A DNA stretch of 61,278 nt from Bacteroidota bacterium (GTDB lineage: Bacteria; Bacteroidota; Bacteroidia; Bacteroidales; UBA6013), in assembly GCA_020048645.1 (NCBI GenBank), contig JAIFMG010000014.1, positions 1 to 61,278 on the forward strand. The letters run 5' to 3'. Shown piece by piece: positions 46,639-59,829 of this stretch. The position numbers and the translations under genes were made by a program. The notes under the pieces are model-generated. The model saw only the letters and a program-made list of their open reading frames with translations, did not search any database and was not told where the DNA came from. Numbering within the stretch: the first letter of the stretch is position 1; every line of letters starts with the position of its first letter.

Positions 46639-48582
46639 ATGGGCTACCTTAAATTTGACAAGGCACAACTGGTCAACCTGGAATATTCCTTGAACAAGGA
46701 GGTCATCCGCTCGAACCGGGCGGGTTCATACGCCAGCACCACCATCATCAACTGCAACACCCGGAAGTACCACGGGCTCCTGGTCTGCCCGCTGGACTCC
46801 TTCGGCGGGACGCGGCACGTGCTGCTCTCTTCTTTGGACACCACGGTCATCCAGCAGGGCAAGGAGTTCCACTTGGCCGTCCACAAGTACCCCGGCAGTG
46901 TCCACGCCGGGCACAAGTACGTCCGCAACTTCGACAGCGACCCCATCCCGACGATCACCTACCGGGTGGGCGGCGTGGTGCTGACCCGCGAGACGATGCT
47001 GGTGGAGGAGGCCGAGCAGGTGCTGGTCCGCTACACCCTGGTGGACGCGCACTCGCCCACCACCCTGCGCTTCAACCCCTTCCTGGCCTTCCGGGGCATC
47101 CACCAGCTCAGCAAGCGCAACGACCGCGTGCGCGACGAGGCCCTGCCCATCAAGAACGGCGTGGCCGTGAGCCTCTACCCCGGCTACCCCTACCTGAACA
47201 TGCAGCTCTCCAAGGAGGCCCACTACGTCCACGCCCCGCAGTGGTTCGAGAACGTCGAGTACTTCAAGGAGAAGGAGCGGGGCTACGACTACCACGAGGA
47301 CATCTTCAACACGGGCTACTTCGAGGTCGAGATCGAGAAGGACGAGAGCATCGTCTTCTCGGCCTCGCTCAAGGAGGAGGCCCCCAACGGCTTCAAGAGC
47401 AAGTTCACCAACCAGGTCAAGAAGCGCATCCCCCGCGACAGCTACATGGGCTGCCTGGAGAACGCCGCCCAGCAGTTCTTCAACCGGCAGGAAGAGGGCC
47501 AGACCTACGTGCTGGCCGGCTTCCCCTGGTTCGGCACCATCAGCCGCAACGTCTTCGGCTCACTGCCCGGCCTGACCCTGCCCGGCGACGACCTCAAGAC
47601 CTTCGAGGCGGTGCTCGACACCCTGGTGGCCCACCAGCAGGGGCCGCTCTTCCCGTCCATCATCGAGCGCAAGGAGGAGGGAAACATGTCGGTTGACACC
47701 CCGCTCTGGTTCATCTGGAGCCTCCAGCAGTTCATGGCCCGCGGCGGCGCCGACGCCGCCCGCCTGTGGAAGAAGTACGGGACGAACATCCGCCAGGTCC
47801 TCGAGGGCTTCCGCGACGGCGCCGACCACGGCATCAAGATGGCCGAGACGGGCCTGCTCGCGGCCGGCCGCGAGGACATCTTCGTCACCTGGATGGACGC
47901 CTACGCCTACGGCGCCCCGGTGACGCCGCGCAACGGCTACGCCGTGGAGGTCCAGGCCCTCTGGTACAACGCCATCCGCTTCGCGCTGGAGCTGGCCAAG
48001 GCCAACGGCCAGGCCGAGTTCGAGCAGGAGTGGGAGGCCGTGGCCCAGCGCATCGAGCAGAACTTCACCCGCGTGTTCTGGGACGAGAAGCGGCAGTACC
48101 TGGCCGACTACGTGAACTGGGGCAAGAAGGACATGTCCATCCGCCCGAACATGGTCTTCGTGGCGTCCATGCCCTATTCCCCGGTTGACGACTACGTGAA
48201 GAACGCGGTGCTGTCGGTGGTCAAGACCCACCTGCTGACCCCGCGGGGCCTGCGCACGCTCTCGCCCTCGGACCCCGGCTACCGGAGCGTGTTCGCGGGC
48301 AGCATCGACGAGCGCTACATGGCCTACCACCAGGGCACGGCCTGGCCTTGGCTGCTGGGCCACTACGCCGAGGCGTACCTGCGCCTGCACGAGCGCACGG
48401 GCCTGAGCCATGTCAAGAAGATCTTCGACGGCTTCGAGGCGGGCCTCAACGAGCACGGCCTGGGCACCATCTCGGAGGTCTATGACGGCGACCCGCCGCA
48501 CGACGGCCGCGGGGCCATCTCCTCTGCCTGGAGCGTGGCCGAGCTGCTGCGGATGAAGCACCTGATCGACCAGTTCGCCTGA
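46639..48582 (+). CDS. Glycogen debranching enzyme (GH133, amylo-alpha-1,6-glucosidase)
   Basis: 647 residues. The N-terminal beta domain (GDE_N-like) shows SNRAGSYASTTIINCNTRKY followed by HGLLV, a strong family signature. The C-terminal (alpha/alpha)6 barrel (~300-647) includes WFGTISRNVFGSLPGL, SVDTPLWFIWSLQQF, TWMDAYAYGAPVTPRNGYAV and GTISEVYDGDPPHDGRGA. The enzyme hydrolyses alpha-1,6 branch glucose left after phosphorylase action. It opens a co-directional cluster with a GT4 synthase-like gene, GH57 enzyme and phosphorylase fusion. No GH13 branching-type domain is present, as expected for the GH133 type. The next gene starts 149 bp on. Confidence 0.93.
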   Translation: MGYLKFDKAQLVNLEYSLNKEVIRSNRAGSYASTTIINCNTRKYHGLLVCPLDSFGGTRHVLLSSLDTTVIQQGKEFHLAVHKYPGSVHAGHKYVRNFDSDPIPTITYRVGGVVLTRETMLVEEAEQVLVRYTLVDAHSPTTLRFNPFLAFRGIHQLSKRNDRVRDEALPIKNGVAVSLYPGYPYLNMQLSKEAHYVHAPQWFENVEYFKEKERGYDYHEDIFNTGYFEVEIEKDESIVFSASLKEEAPNGFKSKFTNQVKKRIPRDSYMGCLENAAQQFFNRQEEGQTYVLAGFPWFGTISRNVFGSLPGLTLPGDDLKTFEAVLDTLVAHQQGPLFPSIIERKEEGNMSVDTPLWFIWSLQQFMARGGADAARLWKKYGTNIRQVLEGFRDGADHGIKMAETGLLAAGREDIFVTWMDAYAYGAPVTPRNGYAVEVQALWYNAIRFALELAKANGQAEFEQEWEAVAQRIEQNFTRVFWDEKRQYLADYVNWGKKDMSIRPNMVFVASMPYSPVDDYVKNAVLSVVKTHLLTPRGLRTLSPSDPGYRSVFAGSIDERYMAYHQGTAWPWLLGHYAEAYLRLHERTGLSHVKKIFDGFEAGLNEHGLGTISEVYDGDPPHDGRGAISSAWSVAELLRMKHLIDQFA

Positions 48583-48731: not shown

Positions 48732-50252
48732 ATGAAAGTACTCATGTTCGGGTGGGAGTTCCCACCACACATCAGCGGCGGATTGGGCACGGCTTGCTAC
48801 GGCCTGACCCGCGGCATGGCTGAAAACGGCCTGGACATCCTCTTCGTGATCCCCAAAGCCTACGGCGACGAGCCCAAGGAGAAGATCGACCTGGTGGGAG
48901 CCAACAAGACGGTCATCAAGCGCAAGCGCTTCATGCAGCACACCGTGTGGCGCGACCAGGAGGAGACCGAGCAGCGCGTGGAGACCCGCGAGACCCAGAG
49001 CTGGGAGCCGGGCCAGACGCGCTGGCGCGAAGTGGAGACCCCCGGCGGCAAGGACGACCCGTACGAGCACGTGCGCCGCATCGACGTGGACTCGTTCCTG
49101 CTCCCCTACCTGACCCCGGAGCAGTTCGAGGTGGCCATGCTCGAGCGCGGCCTGGACCACACGATGGTGCGGGTGGACGACCAGGGCAAGCTGGTCTTCG
49201 GCCAGGAGGCCATCCTGACGGAGGAGCAGCGCAAGACGCGCGAGGTCGTCGGGCAGGTGCGGGAGGACTGGGAGGAGCTGGGCGAGGCCGGCAACTTCTA
49301 CGAGTTCACGGGCCGCTACGGCGCCAACCTGATGCAGGAGGTGGCCAACTTCGCCGTGGTGGCGGGCGAGGTCGCCGCGCACCAGGAGTTCGACATCATC
49401 CACGCCCACGACTGGCTGACCTACGCCGCGGGCGTCGCGGCCAAGCGCCTCTCGGGCAAGCCCCTGGTGGTCCACGTCCACGCCACGGAGTTCGACCGGA
49501 CGGGCCAGAACGTCAACCAGCAGATCTACGACCTGGAGCGCATGGGCATGGACGAGGCCGACATCGTGATCACGGTGAGCAACCTGACCCGGCAGATCGT
49601 CATCGAGCGCTACGGCATCGACCCCAAGAAGGTCTTCACGGTCTATAACGCGGTGGAACCGGTCGAGAAGGCCAAGGTCGAGTTCAGGAAGGGCGTCCGG
49701 GAGAAGATCGTTACCTTCCTGGGGCGCATCACCTTCCAGAAGGGCCCCGAGTACTTCGTGGAGGCGGCCAACCTGCTGCTCCAGAAGGACCGCGACATCC
49801 GGTTCGTGATGGCGGGCACGGGCGACATGATGAACAAGATGATCAAGCGGGCGGCTCAGTTGGGCATCTCGGACAAGTTCCACTTCCCGGGCTTCCTCAA
49901 GGGCGACGAGGTGGACCAGATGTTCGCCATGAGCGATGTTTACGTGATGCCCTCGGTCTCGGAGCCCTTCGGCATCTCGCCCCTGGAGGCCATGCGCTCG
50001 AACGTGCCGGTGATCATCTCGAAGCAGTCGGGGGTCTCGGAGATCCTCAAGCACGCCATCAAGATCGACTTCTGGGACGTGAACGCGATGGCCGACGCCA
50101 TCTACGGCCTGCTGCGCTACGACGCCCTCTCGGGGATGTTCAGCCACCACGGCAAGCAGGAGGTGGACGACCTGAAGTGGGAGAAGGCCGGCCGCGAGGT
50201 CAAGGACGTTTACATGACCCTGTTCCAGAAGGCCGCGGCGGCCCAGCCCTGA
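48732..50252 (+). CDS. GT4/GT5-like glycosyltransferase, glycogen synthase-type
   Basis: 506 residues from the ATG at 48732; a GTG further upstream adds unconserved residues. The GT-B N-terminus MKVLMFGWEFPPHISGGLGT carries the glycine-rich motif of glycogen and starch synthases. IIHAHDWLTY contains the family His/Asp pair. The C-terminal donor domain has FLGRITFQKGPEYFVEAANL and the E-x7-E motif in PSVSEPFGISPLEAMRSNVP. A charged insert of about 110 residues (around 70-180) interrupts the N-terminal domain. In other Bacteroidota homologues occur next to GH133 and GH57 genes and are thought to extend alpha-glucan. UDP- or ADP-glucose preference cannot be told. Confidence 0.9.
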   Translation: MKVLMFGWEFPPHISGGLGTACYGLTRGMAENGLDILFVIPKAYGDEPKEKIDLVGANKTVIKRKRFMQHTVWRDQEETEQRVETRETQSWEPGQTRWREVETPGGKDDPYEHVRRIDVDSFLLPYLTPEQFEVAMLERGLDHTMVRVDDQGKLVFGQEAILTEEQRKTREVVGQVREDWEELGEAGNFYEFTGRYGANLMQEVANFAVVAGEVAAHQEFDIIHAHDWLTYAAGVAAKRLSGKPLVVHVHATEFDRTGQNVNQQIYDLERMGMDEADIVITVSNLTRQIVIERYGIDPKKVFTVYNAVEPVEKAKVEFRKGVREKIVTFLGRITFQKGPEYFVEAANLLLQKDRDIRFVMAGTGDMMNKMIKRAAQLGISDKFHFPGFLKGDEVDQMFAMSDVYVMPSVSEPFGISPLEAMRSNVPVIISKQSGVSEILKHAIKIDFWDVNAMADAIYGLLRYDALSGMFSHHGKQEVDDLKWEKAGREVKDVYMTLFQKAAAAQP

Positions 50253-50306: not shown

Positions 50307-51470
50307 ATGAACGTAATCTTTTTGTCCCCCTACTTCCCCCGGAACTACTTCCATTTCTGCGTGGCCCTCAAACGCAAGGGCGTCAACGTGCTGGGCATCG
50401 GCGACACGCCCTATGAGAACCTCCGCCAGGAGCTGCGCGACTCCCTGAGCGAGTACTACCGCCTGGACAACATGGAGAGCTACGACGAGCTGTACAAGGC
50501 GGTGGCGTTCCTGGCGTTCAAGCATGGCAAGATCGACCGCCTGGACTCGCTCAACGAGCACTGGCTGGAGACGGAGGCCCAGCTACGCACCGACTTCAAC
50601 ATCTGGGGCGTGAAGATGGACACCATCGACATGATCAAGAAGAAGTCGGAGATGAAGAAGCGGTTCCGGGCGGCCGGGGTCAAGGTGGCCGAGGGCGCCC
50701 GGGTGGGCAGCCTCGACGAGGCCAGGGCCTTCACGCGGCAGCACGGCTTCCCCGTGGTGGCCAAGCCCGACACGGGCGTGGGGGCCGCCGGCACCTACAA
50801 GCTCGAGAGCGAGGACGACATCGAGATGATCCGGGAGGTGCTGCAGAAGTACCCCATGTTCCTCGAGCAGTTCGTCTCGGGGCGCATCTTCAGCTTCGAC
50901 GGGCTGGCCAACTACGACGGCGAGGTGGTCTTCTTCGCCATCCACAAGTACCAGACGGGCATCATGGAGATCAAGCATGGCCGCACCGACACCTCGTACT
51001 ACTCGCTCAAGGAGCTGCCCGAGGACCTGGTCAAGGCGGGGATGGACTCCGTCAAGGCCTTCAACGTGCGGGCCCGCTTCTTCCACTTCGAGTTCTTCCG
51101 CACCTACGACACCCACGAGATCGTGGGCCTGGAGGTCAACATGCGCCCCCCGGGCGGCTACACGACCGACATGCTCAACTACGCCACCGACATCAGCGTC
51201 TATGACGAGTGGGCCAACATCGTGGTCAACAACCGCTTCGACTCGAAGATCGAGCGCAAGTACCACGCGGCCTACATCAGCCGGAAGAACCACCTGAGCT
51301 ACTTGCACACCCACCAGGAGGTCCTGGACCAGCAAAAGGGCAAGGTGATGTTCGAGACCGTGATGGACGAGGTGCTCAGCGACGTCCTGGGCGACCACGC
51401 CTACCTCTGCCGCACGAACACCGAGCAGGAGATGGAAGCGCTCATCCAATTCATCCACGCCAAGAAATGA
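50307..51470 (+). CDS. ATP-grasp ligase of unknown substrate, within glycogen cluster
   Basis: 387 residues. N-terminal Rossmann-like pre-ATP-grasp part (VIFLSPYFPRNYFHFCVALK; VNVLGIGDTP) and an ATP-grasp domain (~105-300). ATP-binding residues are visible: Lys153 in FPVVAKPDTGVGAAGTY, the hinge FLEQFVSG (185-192), and the Mg-binding pair Glu276/Asn278 in GLEVNMRPPGGY. Such enzymes ligate a carboxylate to an amine, thiol or hydroxyl through an acyl-phosphate. The C-terminal ~90 residues (YHAAYISRKNHLSYLHTHQE) do not match a family I know. It is 54 bp after the GT4 gene and 37 bp before the esterase, so it is firmly within the operon. No peptide or amino-acid substrate clue is available. Confidence 0.87.
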   Translation: MNVIFLSPYFPRNYFHFCVALKRKGVNVLGIGDTPYENLRQELRDSLSEYYRLDNMESYDELYKAVAFLAFKHGKIDRLDSLNEHWLETEAQLRTDFNIWGVKMDTIDMIKKKSEMKKRFRAAGVKVAEGARVGSLDEARAFTRQHGFPVVAKPDTGVGAAGTYKLESEDDIEMIREVLQKYPMFLEQFVSGRIFSFDGLANYDGEVVFFAIHKYQTGIMEIKHGRTDTSYYSLKELPEDLVKAGMDSVKAFNVRARFFHFEFFRTYDTHEIVGLEVNMRPPGGYTTDMLNYATDISVYDEWANIVVNNRFDSKIERKYHAAYISRKNHLSYLHTHQEVLDQQKGKVMFETVMDEVLSDVLGDHAYLCRTNTEQEMEALIQFIHAKK

Positions 51471-51507
51471 ACGGTGGCGACCCGCGCCGCCACAACCCAC
51501 GACAAAG

Positions 51508-52245
51508 ATGCACAGAGAATTTCACAAGTGGTACAGCGCCAACCTGGGCCGCGACATGGAGCTTGAGGTCTATGGCCACGCCGGCAGGCCCATGCTGGTC
51601 TTCCCCTGCTCGAAGGGGCGATTCTTCGACTACTACAACCGGGGCATGATGCACTCCATCCTCGACCACATCGAGGGCGGCCGCGTGCGGCTGGTCGCCG
51701 TGGACAGCATCGACGAGGAGACCTGGCACGCCCACGGGGGCGACCCCTGGTGGTGGGGCGTCCGCTACAACGACTACGACCGCTACATCACCCAGGAGGT
51801 CGTGCCCTTCATCAACAACCTCTGCGGGCACCCGCACGGCGGCATCGTCACCACGGGCACCAGCATGGGGGCCTACCACGCGGTCAACATGTTCCTCAAG
51901 CATCCCTACGTCTTCAACGGGGTGCTGGCCATGAGCGGCCTCTACCGCCTGCGCACCCTGATCGGCAACGTGATGAACGAGAACATCTACTACAACTCGC
52001 CGCTCGACTACCTGCCGAACCTCGACAACGAGAACACCTGGAACCAGATCCGCTCGGGCAACATCGTGGTGGTGGTGGGCCAGGGGGCCTGGGAGGACGA
52101 CATGCGCCGCGAGACCGACGAGCTCCGGGGCATCCTCAACCAGCGCGGGGTGCCGCACACCATCGACTACTGGGGCAGCGACGTCAACCACGACTGGCCC
52201 TGGTGGCTCAAGATGTTCCCCCACTACATCGGGCGCTTCGTCTGA
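51508..52245 (+). CDS. Esterase-family alpha/beta hydrolase
   Basis: 245 residues of the esterase D / putative esterase family. The nucleophile elbow is TTGTSMGAYHAVN (Ser119). The catalytic Asp is in VVGQGAWEDD (197 or 198) and His228 is in SDVNHDWPWW. Unusually Trp/Tyr-rich surroundings (HGGDPWWWGVRYNDYDRY) probably shape the substrate pocket and resemble carbohydrate esterases. No signal peptide: the enzyme is cytoplasmic. It lies between the ATP-grasp ligase and GH57 genes with 37 bp and 130 bp gaps; a hairpin follows its stop. It may remove an acyl group from glucan or from the product of the ATP-grasp enzyme; this is inference. Confidence 0.87.
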   Translation: MHREFHKWYSANLGRDMELEVYGHAGRPMLVFPCSKGRFFDYYNRGMMHSILDHIEGGRVRLVAVDSIDEETWHAHGGDPWWWGVRYNDYDRYITQEVVPFINNLCGHPHGGIVTTGTSMGAYHAVNMFLKHPYVFNGVLAMSGLYRLRTLIGNVMNENIYYNSPLDYLPNLDNENTWNQIRSGNIVVVVGQGAWEDDMRRETDELRGILNQRGVPHTIDYWGSDVNHDWPWWLKMFPHYIGRFV

Positions 52246-52258
52246 GGCCTCCGGATCC

Positions 52259-52287
52259 GGAGCCCTGGGAGCGTTACCCAGGGCTCC
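52259..52287 (+). terminator. Hairpin between the esterase and GH57 genes
   Basis: A perfect 11-bp stem GGAGCCCTGGG (52259-52269) / CCCAGGGCTCC (52277-52287), 7-nt loop, followed by GGGCCTTTT. It starts 13 bp past the esterase stop. A partial terminator or mRNA-stabilising structure is likely. Confidence 0.6.
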
Positions 52288-52375
52288 GGGCCTTTTCGAG
52301 GCCGGGGCCTCGCCGGGCCCCCCAGCACCCATCCGAAAAAAAAGACCTCCAACCCCAAAACAAAAAGCTGAACTG

Positions 52376-53815
52376 ATGAGAACCATAACGTTTTATTTCC
52401 AAGTACACCAGCCCTTCCGCCTCCGGAGATACCGCTTCTTCGACATTGGCAACGACCATTACTACTATGATGACTTCTCGAACAAGAGCATCATGCGCCG
52501 GGTGGCCAAGAAGTGCTACCTTCCGGCCAACCAGGTGATGCTGGACCTGATCGAGAAGCACAAGGGCAAGTTCAAGGTCAGCTACTGCATCTCGGGCATG
52601 GCCATGGAGCAGTTCGAGCGCTACGCCCCGGAAGTGGTCGAGAGCTTCCGCAGGCTGGTGGCCACCGGGCAGGTGGAGCTGCTGACCGAGACGTACTCGC
52701 ACTCGCTGGCCTCGCTGCGCGACGCCGACGAGTTCAAGGCCCAGGTGCTCCGCCACACCGACAAGATCGAGCAGCTCTTCGGGGTCCGCCCGACCGTCTT
52801 CCGCAACACCGAGTTCATCTATTCCGACCACATCGGGCACATGGTGGCCCAGATGGGCTTCAAGGCGATGCTCACCGAGGGCGCCAAGCACGTCCTGGGA
52901 TGGAAGAGCCCCAACTACCTCTACCACCACCCGGCGCATCCCGGCATGAAGATCCTGCTGCGCAACTTCAAGCTCAGCGACGACATCGCCTTCCGGTTCT
53001 CGAACGTCCGCTGGACGGACTACCCCCTGACGGCCGAGAAGTTCAGCCAGTGGCTCAAGGACATCCCGCAGGCCGAGGAGAACGTCAACCTCTTCATGGA
53101 CTACGAGACCATCGGCGAGCACCAGTGGGCCGAGACCGGCATCTTCGAGTTCCTCAAGGCCCTGCCCGAGGTCGTGCTCAACAGCACCGACTACGGCTTC
53201 GCGACCCCGTCGGAGGCCGTCGAGGCCTACGGCTCCAAGGACGCCCTGAACGTGCCCTACCCGATCTCGTGGGCCGACGAGGAGCGCGACCTGAGCGCCT
53301 GGGTGGGCAACGAGCTCCAGAACGAGGCCTTCAACAAGCTCTACCAGCTCATCGACCAGGTGCGCAAGTACGCCGACCCCTCCCTGCTCGAGGACTGGAG
53401 CAAGCTCCAGACCAGCGACCACTTCTACTACATGTGCACGAAGTTCTTCACCGACGGCGACGTCCACAAGTACTTCAACCACTACGACACGCCCTACGAC
53501 GCGTTCATCAACTACATGAACGTCCTGAGCGACTTCACCGAGCGCCTCCAGCAGGCCACCCGCGAGCGCCAGGAATCGCCCGAGCACGCCACCGGCGAGG
53601 AGCTCGAGCAGCTTATCGCCCACTTCAGGGAGACCCTGGCCAAGCTGGAGGAGCGCAAGGCGCTGGAACAGCACGGGCGGGCAGCCGAGGCCATCGAGAG
53701 GGCCATGCCGCAGGCAGAGGCCGCCCACCAGGACAATCAGGCCAAGCCCAAGGCGCAGAAGGCCAAGGAGGCCGACGCCCCCAAGAAAGGCGAGAAATCC
53801 AAGAAGGGCAAGTAA
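52376..53815 (+). CDS. GH57 glycoside hydrolase, alpha-amylase/4-alpha-glucanotransferase type
   Basis: 479 residues. GH57 motifs: YFQVHQPFRL (7-16), nucleophile Glu146 in VFRNTEFIYSD, and Asp242 in MDYETIGEHQ. The order and spacing are those of the short GH57 alpha-amylase-like group found next to glycogen genes in Bacteroidota. The catalytic part ends near residue 395. The remaining ~80 residues are a low-complexity, highly charged tail rich in Lys, Ala and Glu (KAKEADAPKKGEKSKKGK at the end), not part of the family fold. No signal peptide, so it acts on intracellular alpha-glucan. Branching, transglycosylation and hydrolysis cannot be separated from sequence alone. Confidence 0.92.
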   Translation: MRTITFYFQVHQPFRLRRYRFFDIGNDHYYYDDFSNKSIMRRVAKKCYLPANQVMLDLIEKHKGKFKVSYCISGMAMEQFERYAPEVVESFRRLVATGQVELLTETYSHSLASLRDADEFKAQVLRHTDKIEQLFGVRPTVFRNTEFIYSDHIGHMVAQMGFKAMLTEGAKHVLGWKSPNYLYHHPAHPGMKILLRNFKLSDDIAFRFSNVRWTDYPLTAEKFSQWLKDIPQAEENVNLFMDYETIGEHQWAETGIFEFLKALPEVVLNSTDYGFATPSEAVEAYGSKDALNVPYPISWADEERDLSAWVGNELQNEAFNKLYQLIDQVRKYADPSLLEDWSKLQTSDHFYYMCTKFFTDGDVHKYFNHYDTPYDAFINYMNVLSDFTERLQQATRERQESPEHATGEELEQLIAHFRETLAKLEERKALEQHGRAAEAIERAMPQAEAAHQDNQAKPKAQKAKEADAPKKGEKSKKGK

Positions 53816-53901: not shown

Positions 53902-56900
53902 ATGGAGTTAAGAAAAAACCAGCCGGACTATCTTTTTGAAACCAGTTGGGAAGTCTGCAACAAGGTCGGTGGGATCAACACCGTCATCGCCACCAAGGTG
54001 CCCCTCATCCAGCGCCAGTTCAGGGACAACCACATCCTGATAGGACCCGACCTCTCGCGCGAGACCGAGGGCAGCCCCTATTTCCTGGAGGACATGAACC
54101 TCTTCAAGGCCTGGCGCCAGCGGCTGGCCGACGAGGGCCTTCGCATCCGGATCGGACGCTGGAAGGTGGATGGCAACCCCATCACCTTCCTGGTGGACTT
54201 CTCGACGGTGATTCCGGACAAGAACGACATCTTCAAGAACCTCTGGGAGAAATACAAGGTCGATTCCATCTCGGGCCAGCGCGACTACTACGAGCCCGCG
54301 CTTTTCGGCCACGCCGCCGGCAAGGCGATCGAGAGCTTCTGCAAGTACAACCTGACCATCCGCGACCGGGTGGTGGCCCACTTCCACGAGTGGATGACCG
54401 GCAGCGGGGTGCTCTACCTCAAGCAGTACGTGCCGCAGGTGGGGACGCTCTTCACCACGCACGCCACCGTGCTGGGGCGGACCCTGGCCGAGCGCGGCCA
54501 CGCCCTCTACGACAACCTGCGCAGCTTCGAGCCCAGCACCAAGGCCGCCGAGCTCTCGGTGCAGGCCCGCCACACGCTCGAAAGGGCCGCGGCCCAGAAC
54601 GCCGACTACTTCACCACCGTCAGCGAGATAACCGCCTCCGAGTGCGAGCACTTCCTGGAGCGGCGCCCCGACCTGGTGACCCCCAACGGATTCCTCGACC
54701 ACTTCGTCCCCAAGGGCGAGCTCTTCGACGTCAAGCGGGAGAACGGGCGCAAGAAGCTGCTCGACGTGGCCGCCGCCATCTCCAGGGCTCCCATCGCCAA
54801 CAACGCCCTGCTGCTGATCAACAGCGGCCGCTACGAGTTCCGCAACAAGGGCATCGACGTGTTCATCGAGTCCATCAGCCAGCTCCGCCTGCGCAAGGAC
54901 CTGAGCCGGGAAGTGGTGGCCTTCATCATGGTGCCGGCCAACAACTACGGCGCGCGCCGCGACCTGGCCGCCTACCTCAGCGGCAAGGAGCCTGCCGACA
55001 GCGACAAGAGCAGCAACCGCATCGTCACGCACAAGCTGCACGACTCGGACTCCGACCTGATCTACCAGGCCATCAAGGCCGCCGGCTTCACCAACGGGCC
55101 TGACCAGAAGGTGAAGCTGTTCTTCGTTCCGGCCTACCTCAACGGCGACGACGGGGTCTTCAACCTCAGCTACTACGACCTGCTCATCGGCGCGGACCTG
55201 ACCATCTTCCCGTCGTACTACGAGCCTTGGGGCTACACCCCGCTCGAGAGCATCGCCTTCAAGGTGCCCACCGTCACCACCAACCTGGCCGGCATCGGCA
55301 TGTGGGTCAGCAAGGAGCTGGTGCAGGTCAACGACGGCATCGACGTGCTCTCGCGCCAGGTGGGCATGGACCAGGGCCTGATAGCCCGGATCGTCCAGAA
55401 GGTCGTCGATTTCTCGCACCGCTCGGCGCAGGACATCGCCCGCGCCCGCGAGAACGCCGACTTCGTCTCGAAGATCGCCCTGTGGGAGAACCTGATGAAG
55501 TACTACCAGCGGGCTTTCGCGGCCGTGGTCGAGAAGGTCGAGCTGCGCGCCGACACCTACATCCACAACCTCACGACCGAGCCGCTGCTGACCATCACCA
55601 AGAAGCCTGACAACAAGCCCTCCTGGCGGACCGTCACGGTGCTGCCCCGGATGCACCCCGTCCTCGACGGCCTCGACAGGCTCTCGCGCAACCTCTGGTG
55701 GTCCTGGAACTACGAAGCCAAGGAGGTATTCGAGGTCATCGACCCCGAGATCTGGCGCGAATCCAAGGAGAACCCCATCATCCTGCTCAACGAGGTGGCC
55801 TACGACCGCTACCTCGAGCTGGCCAACGACAGGGAGTACGTCGAGAAGTTCCAGCGCGTGCTGAACCGGTTCGACGAGTACATGGCCGCCAAGACCGACC
55901 AGAACCCCAGGATCGCGTACTTCAGCATGGAGTTCGGCCTGATCAGCCACCTGCGCATCTACTCGGGCGGCCTGGGCGTCCTGGCCGGCGACTACCTCAA
56001 GGAGGCCAGCGACTGCAACGTCAACATGTTCGGCGTGGGCTTGTTCTACCGCTACGGCTACTTCCAGCAGCAGCTCTCCATCAAGGGCGAGCAGATGCAC
56101 TCCTACCAGGCCCAGAACCCGCTGGAGCTTCCCCTGACGCCCGAGCTGAACCACGACGGCAGCTACAAGACCGTGGAGGTGGCCCTGCCCGGCCGCATCG
56201 TCCATGCCCGCATCTGGCGCGTGGACGTCGGCCGCATCCCGCTCTACCTGCTCGACACCGACTGCCCGGAGAACAACGAGGAGGACCGCTCGCTCTCGCA
56301 CAACCTCTACGGAGGCGAGACCGAGCACCGCCTCAAGCAGGAAATCCTGCTGGGGATCGGAGGCATCCGCCTGCTCGACCGCATGGGCGTCAGCTCCGAC
56401 CTGTTCCACTGCAACGAGGGCCACGCCGCCTTCATCAGCGTCGAGCGGCTGAAGAACTACATCAACGACAACAACTTCACCTTCTCCGAGTCGCTCGAGA
56501 TCGTCCGGGCCTCGACCCTTTTCACGACCCACACTCCGGTCCCGGCCGGCCACGACTCGTTCGACGAGGACCTGCTCGCGGTTTACATGCGCCATTTCCC
56601 CGAGAAGCTGCGCATCAGTTGGGACGAGTTCATGAACCTGGGGCGGATGCACCCCAACGACAAGAAGGAGCGCTTCTCGATGAGCCACCTGGCCGCCAAC
56701 ACCTCGCAGGAGATCAACGGCGTCAGCATGCTCCACGGCGAGGTCACCAAGGAGATGTTCAACGACATGTGGGACGGATTCTCCAAGGACGAGCTCCACA
56801 TCGGATTCGTCACCAACGGAGTCCACTACCCGACGTGGGCCGGCCGACGCTGGCAGCGCCTCTACGAGAAGGCCTTCGGCAGGGAGTTCCTCGCGGACCA

Positions 56901-58149
56901 GTCCAACGAAAGCCAATGGCACAAGATCCACCAGGTGGACGACAAGGTCATCTGGGACCTGCGCCACGCCCACCGGGCCGAGCTGCTCGACTACCTCAAG
57001 GACCGCCTGAGCTCCAACTGGATACAGCGGCACGTCCCGCCCAAGCGCATCATCCAGGTCAAGGAGAAGCTCAGCGACAAGGCCCTGACCTTCGGCTTCG
57101 CCCGGCGGTTCGCCACCTACAAGCGGGCCCAACTGCTCTTCTCGAACAAGGAGCGCCTGGCCAAGATCGTCAACAACCCCCACCGCGAGGTGCAGTTCAT
57201 CTTCGCCGGCAAGGCCCACCCCAAGGACAAGCCCGGACAGGACCTCATCCGCATGATCGTCGAGATCTCGAACGAGCCCGAGTTCACCGGAAAGGTGCTC
57301 TTCCTGCAAGACTACGACATGGAGCTGGCCCGCCGCCTCGTGCAGGGCGTGGACATCTGGCTCAACACCCCCACCCGTCCGCTCGAGGCCTCGGGCACCA
57401 GCGGCATGAAGGCCATCTTCAACGGGGTGATGAACTTCAGCGTGCTCGACGGCTGGTGGGTCGAAGGCTACCGCGAGGACGCCGGATGGGCCCTCCCCCT
57501 GGAGAAGACCTACAACAACCAGGACTTCCAGGACGAGCTCGACGCCGAGACCATCTACTCGACCCTCGAGAACGAGATCATCCCGCTCTTCTACGACCGC
57601 GGCCCCGACGGTGTCCCCAACGGATGGGTCAAGCGCATCAAGAACAGCATCGCCCAGATCGCGCCCAACTTCACCATGAAGCGCATGATCGACGACTACC
57701 ATGAGCGCTTCTACGGCAAGCTCGCCGCCCGCACCCGCGAGATGCGCAAGGACAACTACCGCCTGGCCAAGGAGATCGCGTCCTGGAAAAAGCGCATCTT
57801 CCGGAGCTGGGACAGCATCGAGGTCGTCTCGGTCAACTCGCCCAACACCAGCAACAACCAGCTCCTGCTCGGAGAGAAGTACCGCCTCGAAGTGGTCCTC
57901 GACCTCAAGGAGCTCTACCGCTCGGGCATCGGCATCGAGATTCTCATCGCCGAGGAGGACAAGGACGGCTCGCGCAACTTCATCGAGAAGATCCCCATGG
58001 CCCAGACCAAGATGGAGGGCCAAGTGGCCCACTTCGAGGCGGACCTGGTCATCAACAGGCCCGGCAGTTTCAGCTACGGCATCCGCGTCCACCCGCTCAA
58101 CGACGTGCTGCCCCACCGCCAGGACTTCAACTACGTCAAATGGCTCTGA
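53902..58149 (+). CDS. Fused glycogen synthase (GT3) - alpha-glucan phosphorylase (GT35)
   Basis: 1,415 residues. Residues ~1-560 are a eukaryote-type GT3 glycogen synthase (LFETSWEVCNKVGGINTVIA; VVAHFHEWMTGSGVLYLKQY; VTPNGF; E-x7-E at Glu441/Glu449 in YYEPWGYTPLES). From ~574 a DUF3417 segment (LDRLSRNLWWSWNYEA) leads into a short-type alpha-glucan phosphorylase (AYFSMEFGLISHLRIYSGGL; DLFHCNEGHAAF; TTHTPVPAGHD). The PLP lysine is Lys1170 in SGTSGMKAIFNG. The last ~140 residues are a beta-sandwich. One chain thus carries chain elongation from a nucleotide sugar and phosphorolysis to glucose-1-phosphate. The frame is open through the junction; no frameshift is seen. It is the last gene of the cluster, with a strong terminator. 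Confidence 0.93.
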   Translation: MELRKNQPDYLFETSWEVCNKVGGINTVIATKVPLIQRQFRDNHILIGPDLSRETEGSPYFLEDMNLFKAWRQRLADEGLRIRIGRWKVDGNPITFLVDFSTVIPDKNDIFKNLWEKYKVDSISGQRDYYEPALFGHAAGKAIESFCKYNLTIRDRVVAHFHEWMTGSGVLYLKQYVPQVGTLFTTHATVLGRTLAERGHALYDNLRSFEPSTKAAELSVQARHTLERAAAQNADYFTTVSEITASECEHFLERRPDLVTPNGFLDHFVPKGELFDVKRENGRKKLLDVAAAISRAPIANNALLLINSGRYEFRNKGIDVFIESISQLRLRKDLSREVVAFIMVPANNYGARRDLAAYLSGKEPADSDKSSNRIVTHKLHDSDSDLIYQAIKAAGFTNGPDQKVKLFFVPAYLNGDDGVFNLSYYDLLIGADLTIFPSYYEPWGYTPLESIAFKVPTVTTNLAGIGMWVSKELVQVNDGIDVLSRQVGMDQGLIARIVQKVVDFSHRSAQDIARARENADFVSKIALWENLMKYYQRAFAAVVEKVELRADTYIHNLTTEPLLTITKKPDNKPSWRTVTVLPRMHPVLDGLDRLSRNLWWSWNYEAKEVFEVIDPEIWRESKENPIILLNEVAYDRYLELANDREYVEKFQRVLNRFDEYMAAKTDQNPRIAYFSMEFGLISHLRIYSGGLGVLAGDYLKEASDCNVNMFGVGLFYRYGYFQQQLSIKGEQMHSYQAQNPLELPLTPELNHDGSYKTVEVALPGRIVHARIWRVDVGRIPLYLLDTDCPENNEEDRSLSHNLYGGETEHRLKQEILLGIGGIRLLDRMGVSSDLFHCNEGHAAFISVERLKNYINDNNFTFSESLEIVRASTLFTTHTPVPAGHDSFDEDLLAVYMRHFPEKLRISWDEFMNLGRMHPNDKKERFSMSHLAANTSQEINGVSMLHGEVTKEMFNDMWDGFSKDELHIGFVTNGVHYPTWAGRRWQRLYEKAFGREFLADQSNESQWHKIHQVDDKVIWDLRHAHRAELLDYLKDRLSSNWIQRHVPPKRIIQVKEKLSDKALTFGFARRFATYKRAQLLFSNKERLAKIVNNPHREVQFIFAGKAHPKDKPGQDLIRMIVEISNEPEFTGKVLFLQDYDMELARRLVQGVDIWLNTPTRPLEASGTSGMKAIFNGVMNFSVLDGWWVEGYREDAGWALPLEKTYNNQDFQDELDAETIYSTLENEIIPLFYDRGPDGVPNGWVKRIKNSIAQIAPNFTMKRMIDDYHERFYGKLAARTREMRKDNYRLAKEIASWKKRIFRSWDSIEVVSVNSPNTSNNQLLLGEKYRLEVVLDLKELYRSGIGIEILIAEEDKDGSRNFIEKIPMAQTKMEGQVAHFEADLVINRPGSFSYGIRVHPLNDVLPHRQDFNYVKWL

Positions 58150-58338: not shown

Positions 58339-59829
58339 ATGAACAACAGCCAGATCCTCATGAACCCCAACAAGTTGGCCGCCTTCCTACAGAAAGAGCC
58401 GCGGGAGTTCAACCGCAAGGACATCCTTCGTTTCATCAAGGCCAACAACCTGCGGCGGCTCAACTTCCGCTACGTGGCCGAAGATGGGCACCTCAAGACG
58501 CTTGACTTCGTGGTCAACAGCCGGCGGCACCTGGACGAGCTGCTCTCGACGGGCGAGCGCGTCGATGGCTCAAGCCTGTTCTCCTTCATGGAGCAGGGCC
58601 AGAGCGACCTCTACCTCATCCCCCGTTTCCGCACGGCCCTGCTCAACCCCTTCCAGCAGGAGCCGACCCTGGAGCTCTTCTGCTCCTTCTACACCCACGA
58701 CGGCAGCCCCCTGGGCATGGCCACCGAGAACATCCTGCGCGCCGCCGACCAGCGCTTCAAGGCCCGGACGGGGCTGGACTTCATGGCCCTGGGCGAGCTC
58801 GAGTACTACATGATCAGCCCGGCCGACCCCAGCGCGCTGCCCCACCGCGGCAGTGGCTACCACCTGGCCTCGCCCTTCGTCAAATGGGAAGGCCTCCGCG
58901 ACAAGGCCATGGAGCTGCTCTCCGAGATGGGCGTGGCCATCAAGTACGCCCACTCCGAGGCCGGCTGCTTCACCGAGGGCGGCTTCGACTACGAGCAGCA
59001 CGAGATCGAGTTCCGGCCCGCGCCCGCCGAGGAGGCCGCACGGAGCATCATCCTGGCCAAATGGGTCTTGCGCAAGCTCGCCCACCAGCAGGGCGTCCGG
59101 GTCAGCTTCGCCCCCAAGATCTCGCCCAAGCATGCCGGGAGCGGGCTGCACGTCCACATGCAGCTCGAGCGCGGCGGGCAGAACGTCATGCTCGAGGGCG
59201 GGGAGCTCAGCCTCACCGCGCGCAAGGCCGTCGCCGGCTGGCTCGACTCGGCCGACCTGCTCACCGCCTTCGGCAACACCACGCCCACCTCCTACCTGCG
59301 CCTGGTCCCCGGAAACGAGTGCCCGACCAGCATCTGCTGGGGCGACCGAAACCGCTCCGTGCTGGTGCGCGTGCCCCTGGGCTGGAACCTCCGCCACTCC
59401 ATGATCCACGACGCCAACCCCTTCGAGCTGGACGACATACCGGACACCAGCGGAAAGCAGACCGTCGAAATCCGTAGCGGCGACGGCTCCGCCAACGCCC
59501 ACCTCTACATGGCCGCCCTGATCATGACCGCGCTGCACGGCCTCGAAATGGACGACCAGAAGGCCCTGGACCTGCTCCGCCAGCACCGCGCCGAGCTGGG
59601 GACCGCGCCCGTCGGCCTGCCAAGGCTCCCCGGCTCTTGCTCCGAGTCGGCCCGGGCGCTGCTCGGAAAGCGCCAGCGCCTCGAAAGGGACGGCGTGTTT
59701 CCCGCCTCCACCATCGACAAGCAGGCCCAGCACCTGGCCGACCACCACGACGAGGACCTGGCCGAGCTGCTCGCCGACGACCCCACCAACTTGGACGAGC
59801 TGGTCCGCAAGCACCTGCACTGCGGCTAG
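58339..59829 (+). CDS. Divergent type I glutamine synthetase homologue
   Basis: 496 residues. The beta-grasp domain (RFIKANNLRRLNFRYVAEDG; VDGSSLFSF with Asp76) and catalytic domain match GSI. Metal/substrate residues are kept: Glu153 and Glu155 (GELEYYM), Glu222 (QHEIEFRP), His271 (SGLHVHM), Glu327 (PGNECPTS), Arg339 and Arg344 (NRSVLVRVP), Glu377 and Arg379 (TVEIRS). The normally invariant FPDP.ANPYL after the last Arg is SGDGSANAHLY, and no adenylylation-site Tyr loop is recognisable. It may be a genuine glutamine synthetase or a gamma-glutamyl ligase for another amine. Bacteroidota usually use GSIII, so this is likely a second enzyme. It is monocistronic and convergent with rsmE. Confidence 0.87.
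   Translation: MNNSQILMNPNKLAAFLQKEPREFNRKDILRFIKANNLRRLNFRYVAEDGHLKTLDFVVNSRRHLDELLSTGERVDGSSLFSFMEQGQSDLYLIPRFRTALLNPFQQEPTLELFCSFYTHDGSPLGMATENILRAADQRFKARTGLDFMALGELEYYMISPADPSALPHRGSGYHLASPFVKWEGLRDKAMELLSEMGVAIKYAHSEAGCFTEGGFDYEQHEIEFRPAPAEEAARSIILAKWVLRKLAHQQGVRVSFAPKISPKHAGSGLHVHMQLERGGQNVMLEGGELSLTARKAVAGWLDSADLLTAFGNTTPTSYLRLVPGNECPTSICWGDRNRSVLVRVPLGWNLRHSMIHDANPFELDDIPDTSGKQTVEIRSGDGSANAHLYMAALIMTALHGLEMDDQKALDLLRQHRAELGTAPVGLPRLPGSCSESARALLGKRQRLERDGVFPASTIDKQAQHLADHHDEDLAELLADDPTNLDELVRKHLHCG

Follow-up and report, generated by a model that had tools for sequence, protein, structure and literature searches.

A free-standing ATP-grasp ligase-esterase module probably inserted by horizontal transfer into a conserved Bacteroidota glycogen operon

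Two adjacent genes, encoding an ATP-grasp ligase and a serine esterase, lie between a GT4 synthase-like gene and a GH57 gene in the glycogen operon of a Bacteroidota bacterium. Our analysis suggests that this pair is probably a free-standing metabolic module that arrived at this site by horizontal transfer and has no glycogen function, with the ligase joining small molecules and the esterase acting on a related bond. The whole stretch of DNA analysed, hereafter the window, is 61,278 nt long and contains the following features.

46639-48582: GH133 gene, a neighbour in the operon.
48732..50252, + strand: GT4 synthase-like gene, upstream of the pair, part of the host operon and outside the module (matches to PF00534, PF13439 and PF08323).
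50307..51470, + strand: predicted ATP-grasp ligase of the L-amino-acid-ligase (RizA/BacD) type, 387 aa (PF13535, AF2 fold, conserved residues).
51508..52245, + strand: predicted PF00756 serine esterase/hydrolase, putatively cytosolic, 245 aa, with Ser119, His228 and the probable acid Glu196 (PF00756, AF2 fold, conservation counts).
52257..52289, + strand: 13-bp perfect hairpin 3' of the esterase stop (inverted repeat I4, 100% matched along its 13 nt, with a loop of 7 nt).
52376..53815, + strand: GH57 gene, downstream of the pair, part of the host operon and outside the module (PF03065, 3.4e-78).
53902-58149: GT3-GT35 fusion, a single ORF of 1415 aa.
58339-59829: glutamine synthetase-like gene after the operon (TIGR00653, 197 bits, under the cut-off of 429).

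The open reading frames and gaps confirmed that the ligase and esterase genes lie between GT4 and GH57 at the spacing originally described, with 54 bp between GT4 and the ligase and 37 bp between the ligase and the esterase; a further 130 bp separate the esterase from GH57. Full-length orthologues of both proteins, at up to 53% identity, occur in many phyla, and both are therefore genuine genes.

The original prediction proposed that the pair acts on alpha-glucan or on a molecule made from it, took the tight spacing as an argument against chance, and suggested a survey for co-occurrence with glycogen genes. Of 60 same-order genomes examined for the GT4 gene, 53 have it. In all 28 genomes in which both genes were readable, GT4 was directly followed by GH57 with nothing between them, neither ligase nor esterase. 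The estimated GT4-GH57 gaps in these relatives ranged from about -26 to +156 bp, apart from one value of -170 (L145) that reflects a frame-broken alignment. The ligase was present in just three of the 60 genomes, including that of the window. In the other two owners (G331 and G350), the contigs that bear the ligase and the esterase (L149 and L150) are not those of the glycogen loci (L151 and L159), where the GT4-GH57 junction is uninterrupted. A reverse survey of 152 loci carrying the ligase family, spanning 2.31 Mb of DNA, revealed no homologue of GH57, GH133, GT3 or GT35 and only one weak, generic GT4 match. The window thus has the same genes in the same order as the Bacteroidota glycogen operon GH133-GT4-GH57(-GT3-GT35), and differs from all the other operons compared in carrying the ligase-esterase insert. 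Because the junction is intact in every readable relative and the ligase family elsewhere has no glycogen genes nearby, we rejected a glycogen role for the pair; nothing outside this one operon ties it to alpha-glucan, and close spacing in a single genome is no evidence of glycogen function. Absence of the pair from the locus in most relatives is also the outcome that the original prediction itself had named as counting against it. Since the pair is absent at this site in relatives, we infer that it was inserted.

The hairpin at 52257-52289 comes shortly after the esterase stop and coincides exactly with the end of the insert. The region from 52240 to 52380 folds at -61.3 kcal/mol (z -3.55). 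The hairpin was not called by the terminator scan and shows no clear U tract; it would be either a terminator-like or a processing structure, and it may mark the 3' end of the module.

The ligase and the esterase form a real unit, as the original prediction supposed. With each GTDB species represented by a single genome, scanning identified 310 stretches encoding relatives, and we analysed the best 80 of these together with six further loci. In 60 of these 86 loci the esterase adjoins the ligase, mostly as the next gene downstream on the same strand; the gaps are mostly -4 to 46 bp, with a median near 8 bp. Moreover, the distances in the ligase and esterase trees are correlated across 54 pairs (mirror-tree r = 0.79, species history included, versus a permutation maximum of 0.25). 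The hosts belong to at least nine phyla, namely Chloroflexota, Bacillota, Bacteroidota, Pseudomonadota (including Alphaproteobacteria and Pasteurellaceae), Myxococcota, Deinococcota, Melainabacteria/Cyanobacteriota, Ignavibacteriota and Synergistota, with Synergistales and Ignavibacteria among them. In Erysipelotrichia, ligase-esterase-ligase triplets occur. No third partner is conserved across all loci, and the flanks are otherwise lineage-specific.

The trees indicate that the module moves between lineages, since in the ligase and esterase trees alike the copy from Streptococcus is sister to that from a Pasteurellaceae bacterium, and the three ligase copies from the same order fall into separate clades: that of G331 groups with Saprospiraceae, that of G350 with Prevotellaceae, and that of the window stands apart. 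Both proteins of the window sit on long branches and point to no particular donor. We found no description of the pair in the open-access literature. A role in anti-phage defence was also considered and rejected, as the pair matches no PADLOC model; comparison with PHROGs gave only weak matches, to unknown families. Taken together, the pair is a widespread, uncharacterised, free-standing ligase-esterase module that moves horizontally.

The ligase also occurs without its partner. Among 20 genomes with no intact esterase call beside the ligase, 11 encode an esterase relative in the genome; in one of these 11, Heliophilum, the esterase is apparently adjacent to the ligase but split between frames. 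Among 392 genomes sampled from Bacillota (the phylum of Thomasclavelia), 100 encode the ligase, many of these being only ~1 Mb in size, and this prevalence, extending to very small genomes, suggests a metabolite worth finding. In 24 of 30 ligase-bearing Bacillota genomes tested, mostly small ones, an esterase relative was absent at E <= 1e-15. In other samples, the ligase was found in 11 of 399 Pseudomonadota genomes, in five of 301 Chloroflexota genomes and, within the genus to which the Prevotella locus belongs, in seven of 120 genomes. Since the ligase persists in many genomes that lack any esterase relative, it has a job of its own, and the two enzymes need not act on one molecule. These genomes weaken the earlier idea that ligase and esterase install and remove the same group; such a cycle is not obligatory.

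The second set comprised 58 loci, and in 14 of these (L249, L278 and 12 others of L242-L301) a lone ligase lies just downstream of apparent F1Fo ATP synthase genes, recognised by eye. This arrangement is seen in small Bacillota genomes, and a gene resembling inorganic pyrophosphatase by eye is sometimes next after the ligase.

The ligase matches PF13535 (ATP-grasp_4) at 7.9e-8, over the Pfam cut-off. Lys153 and Glu276/Asn278, previously read as intact, are invariant in 71 of 71 relatives, as are R280, G283 and G284; E84, W86 and R94 are also invariant in the family. The AlphaFold (AF2) model has a pLDDT of 94.8, and its five best PDB fold matches in Foldseek are all L-amino acid ligases: RizA (4wd3) is the top match at 4.8e-26, and YwfE/BacD (3wnz, 3vmm) and BL00235 (3vot) are also close. 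RizA is additionally the best PDB sequence match (profile 1.7e-24, residues 51-306), and the two proteins can be aligned at the catalytic Lys and at the Arg-x-x-Gly-Gly loop of the acceptor site. However, identity to the L-amino acid ligases is only about 19%, and Asn278 corresponds to Ala in RizA. RizA variants at T81, K83 and S84 change product specificity (PMC9321006), and this specificity stretch aligns with the region of the ligase family that bears the invariant E84, W86 and R94. No NCBIfam model passes for either ligase or esterase, only generic Pfam models do; the NCBIfam model AAntcapLigBacD gives the ligase 20 bits against a cut-off of 850. On the basis of the structural model, the first protein has an ATP-grasp fold of the L-amino-acid-ligase (RizA/BacD-like) type and is predicted to have ligation activity. 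This fold is shared by purine and carboxylase enzymes, so by itself it does not prove peptide-bond formation.

The esterase matches PF00756 at 6.2e-11 (43 bits versus a cut-off of 22), and its AF2 model (pLDDT 96.4) gives the second protein a serine-esterase fold. The catalytic triad had been assigned as Ser119, Asp197/198 and His228. Ser119 and His228 hold, both being invariant in 56 of 56 relatives, but the assigned acid does not, as position 197 is Asp in only 27 of 56 and position 198 in only six of 56. Position 196, in contrast, is Glu in 50 and Asp in two of the 56, and it closely follows strand 185-190 of the model; Glu196 is therefore more likely to be the catalytic acid than Asp197/198. 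The assignment of the esterase to the cytoplasm rests on its N-terminus (MHREFHKWYSANLGRDMELEVYG), which by eye has no hydrophobic leader. The fold matches comprise feruloyl esterases (5vol/7xrt), S-formylglutathione hydrolases, FphF/FrmB and Ag85 acyltransferases. The esterase shares with these PF00756 enzymes the GxSxG serine, the His and a probable acid after the seventh strand, at 12-18% identity. Unlike them, it has no leader or carbohydrate-binding module, and its gene is linked by position to that of a ligase.

We propose that horizontal transfer would have placed the module between GT4 and GH57, a position where the promoter of the glycogen operon may drive it but which confers no role in glycogen metabolism. 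The ligase would use ATP to activate an amino acid, or some similar small acid, at its carboxylate as an acyl phosphate. It would then couple this to a second small molecule through an amine (or hydroxyl) group of the latter, yielding a dipeptide-like amide or ester. The esterase could act by hydrolysing or trimming an ester, thioester or amide bond, either in this product or in a precursor. The substrates and a shared pathway for the two enzymes are inferred.

Neighbouring genes offer some hints at function. A second PF00756 esterase occurs near the ligase in 13 of the 152 loci, mostly near the pair and sometimes as the next gene (L067, L079, L089, L090, L103, L111, L247, L252, L254, L256, L293, L296 and L297), in hosts from Bacillota, Bacteroidota, Myxococcota and Pasteurellaceae. 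More elaborate arrangements are found in two Prevotellaceae clusters (L079:9137-16134 and L103:2806-8967), in which genes for two ATP-grasp paralogues and two or three PF00756 esterases apparently belong to one operon together with those for a Glu-Cys ligase (PF04262, 9e-64) and for an EgtC-like class II amidotransferase (PF13230, with TIGR03442 sub-threshold). These clusters represent a possible undescribed pathway and hint at a peptide-like small molecule as its product. More broadly, we suggest, as a tentative and somewhat doubtful extension, that the ligase is the founding member of a small-molecule pathway that is widely transferred and as yet undescribed. In this pathway, one or two RizA-like ligases and one to three PF00756 esterases, joined in some Prevotellaceae by the Glu-Cys ligase and EgtC-like amidase, would make a peptide-like metabolite.

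A narrower possibility is that the module serves the synthesis and turnover of a small gamma-glutamyl or cysteine-containing peptide, in a thiol or protected-amine pathway. The partners encoded in the two Prevotellaceae clusters are consistent with such a product, and the second esterase distantly resembles S-formylglutathione hydrolase. However, none of the other Prevotella-genus copies with enough flank has GshA or the amidotransferase beside the pair, and PF04262 is missing from eight of 12 tested pair-bearing genomes or records. We consider this reading unlikely, and keep the glutathione link as no more than a rival, since it is limited to two loci of Prevotellaceae.

The ATP-grasp enzyme might alternatively be a depsipeptide-type ligase that forms an ester bond, with the esterases as matching hydrolases. 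D-Ala-D-lactate ligases, which are ATP-grasp enzymes, form ester bonds and provide a chemical precedent. The partners of the ligase are esterases rather than peptidases, and a second esterase is found in the 13 loci listed above, but the nearest solved ligases make amides, and we judge this mechanism to be quite improbable. Finally, capture of the pair into the glycogen operon as a lineage-specific modifier that decorates alpha-glucan with acyl or aminoacyl groups is highly improbable: the same-strand position within the operon, the short gaps of 54 and 37 bp and the likeness of the esterase fold to carbohydrate esterases, including the CBM48-CE1 enzyme 7b6b, are outweighed by the presence of this arrangement in one genome only, the lack of glycogen genes near the family elsewhere, the lack of a sugar-binding domain in the pair and the use of small amino acids by RizA-type ATP-grasp ligases.

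The preferred reading, that of a transferred metabolic module, does away with an attractive but mistaken connection between glycogen and a new acyl modification; the case also shows that a mobile module can sit within a housekeeping operon. The pair is ordinary as a glycogen finding and moderately interesting as an orphan ligase family.

Some further observations concern individual loci. In Peptoclostridium acidaminophilum (L115:5779-11046), the pair lies between two genes for 3-deoxy-7-phosphoheptulonate (DAHP) synthase, and genes of histidine catabolism follow farther downstream; prephenate-dehydratase-like genes, recognised by eye, occur near L052, L063 and L068. A link to aromatic amino acids was considered and dropped, since these cases are too few. 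With respect to the glycogen operon itself, no homologue of the glutamine synthetase-like gene was seen near the operons of relatives within the flanks read. The GT3 glycogen synthase and the GT35 phosphorylase, fused in the window, are encoded side by side in the same operon in several relatives, and at L154 the GT3-GT35 block precedes GH133 rather than following GH57.
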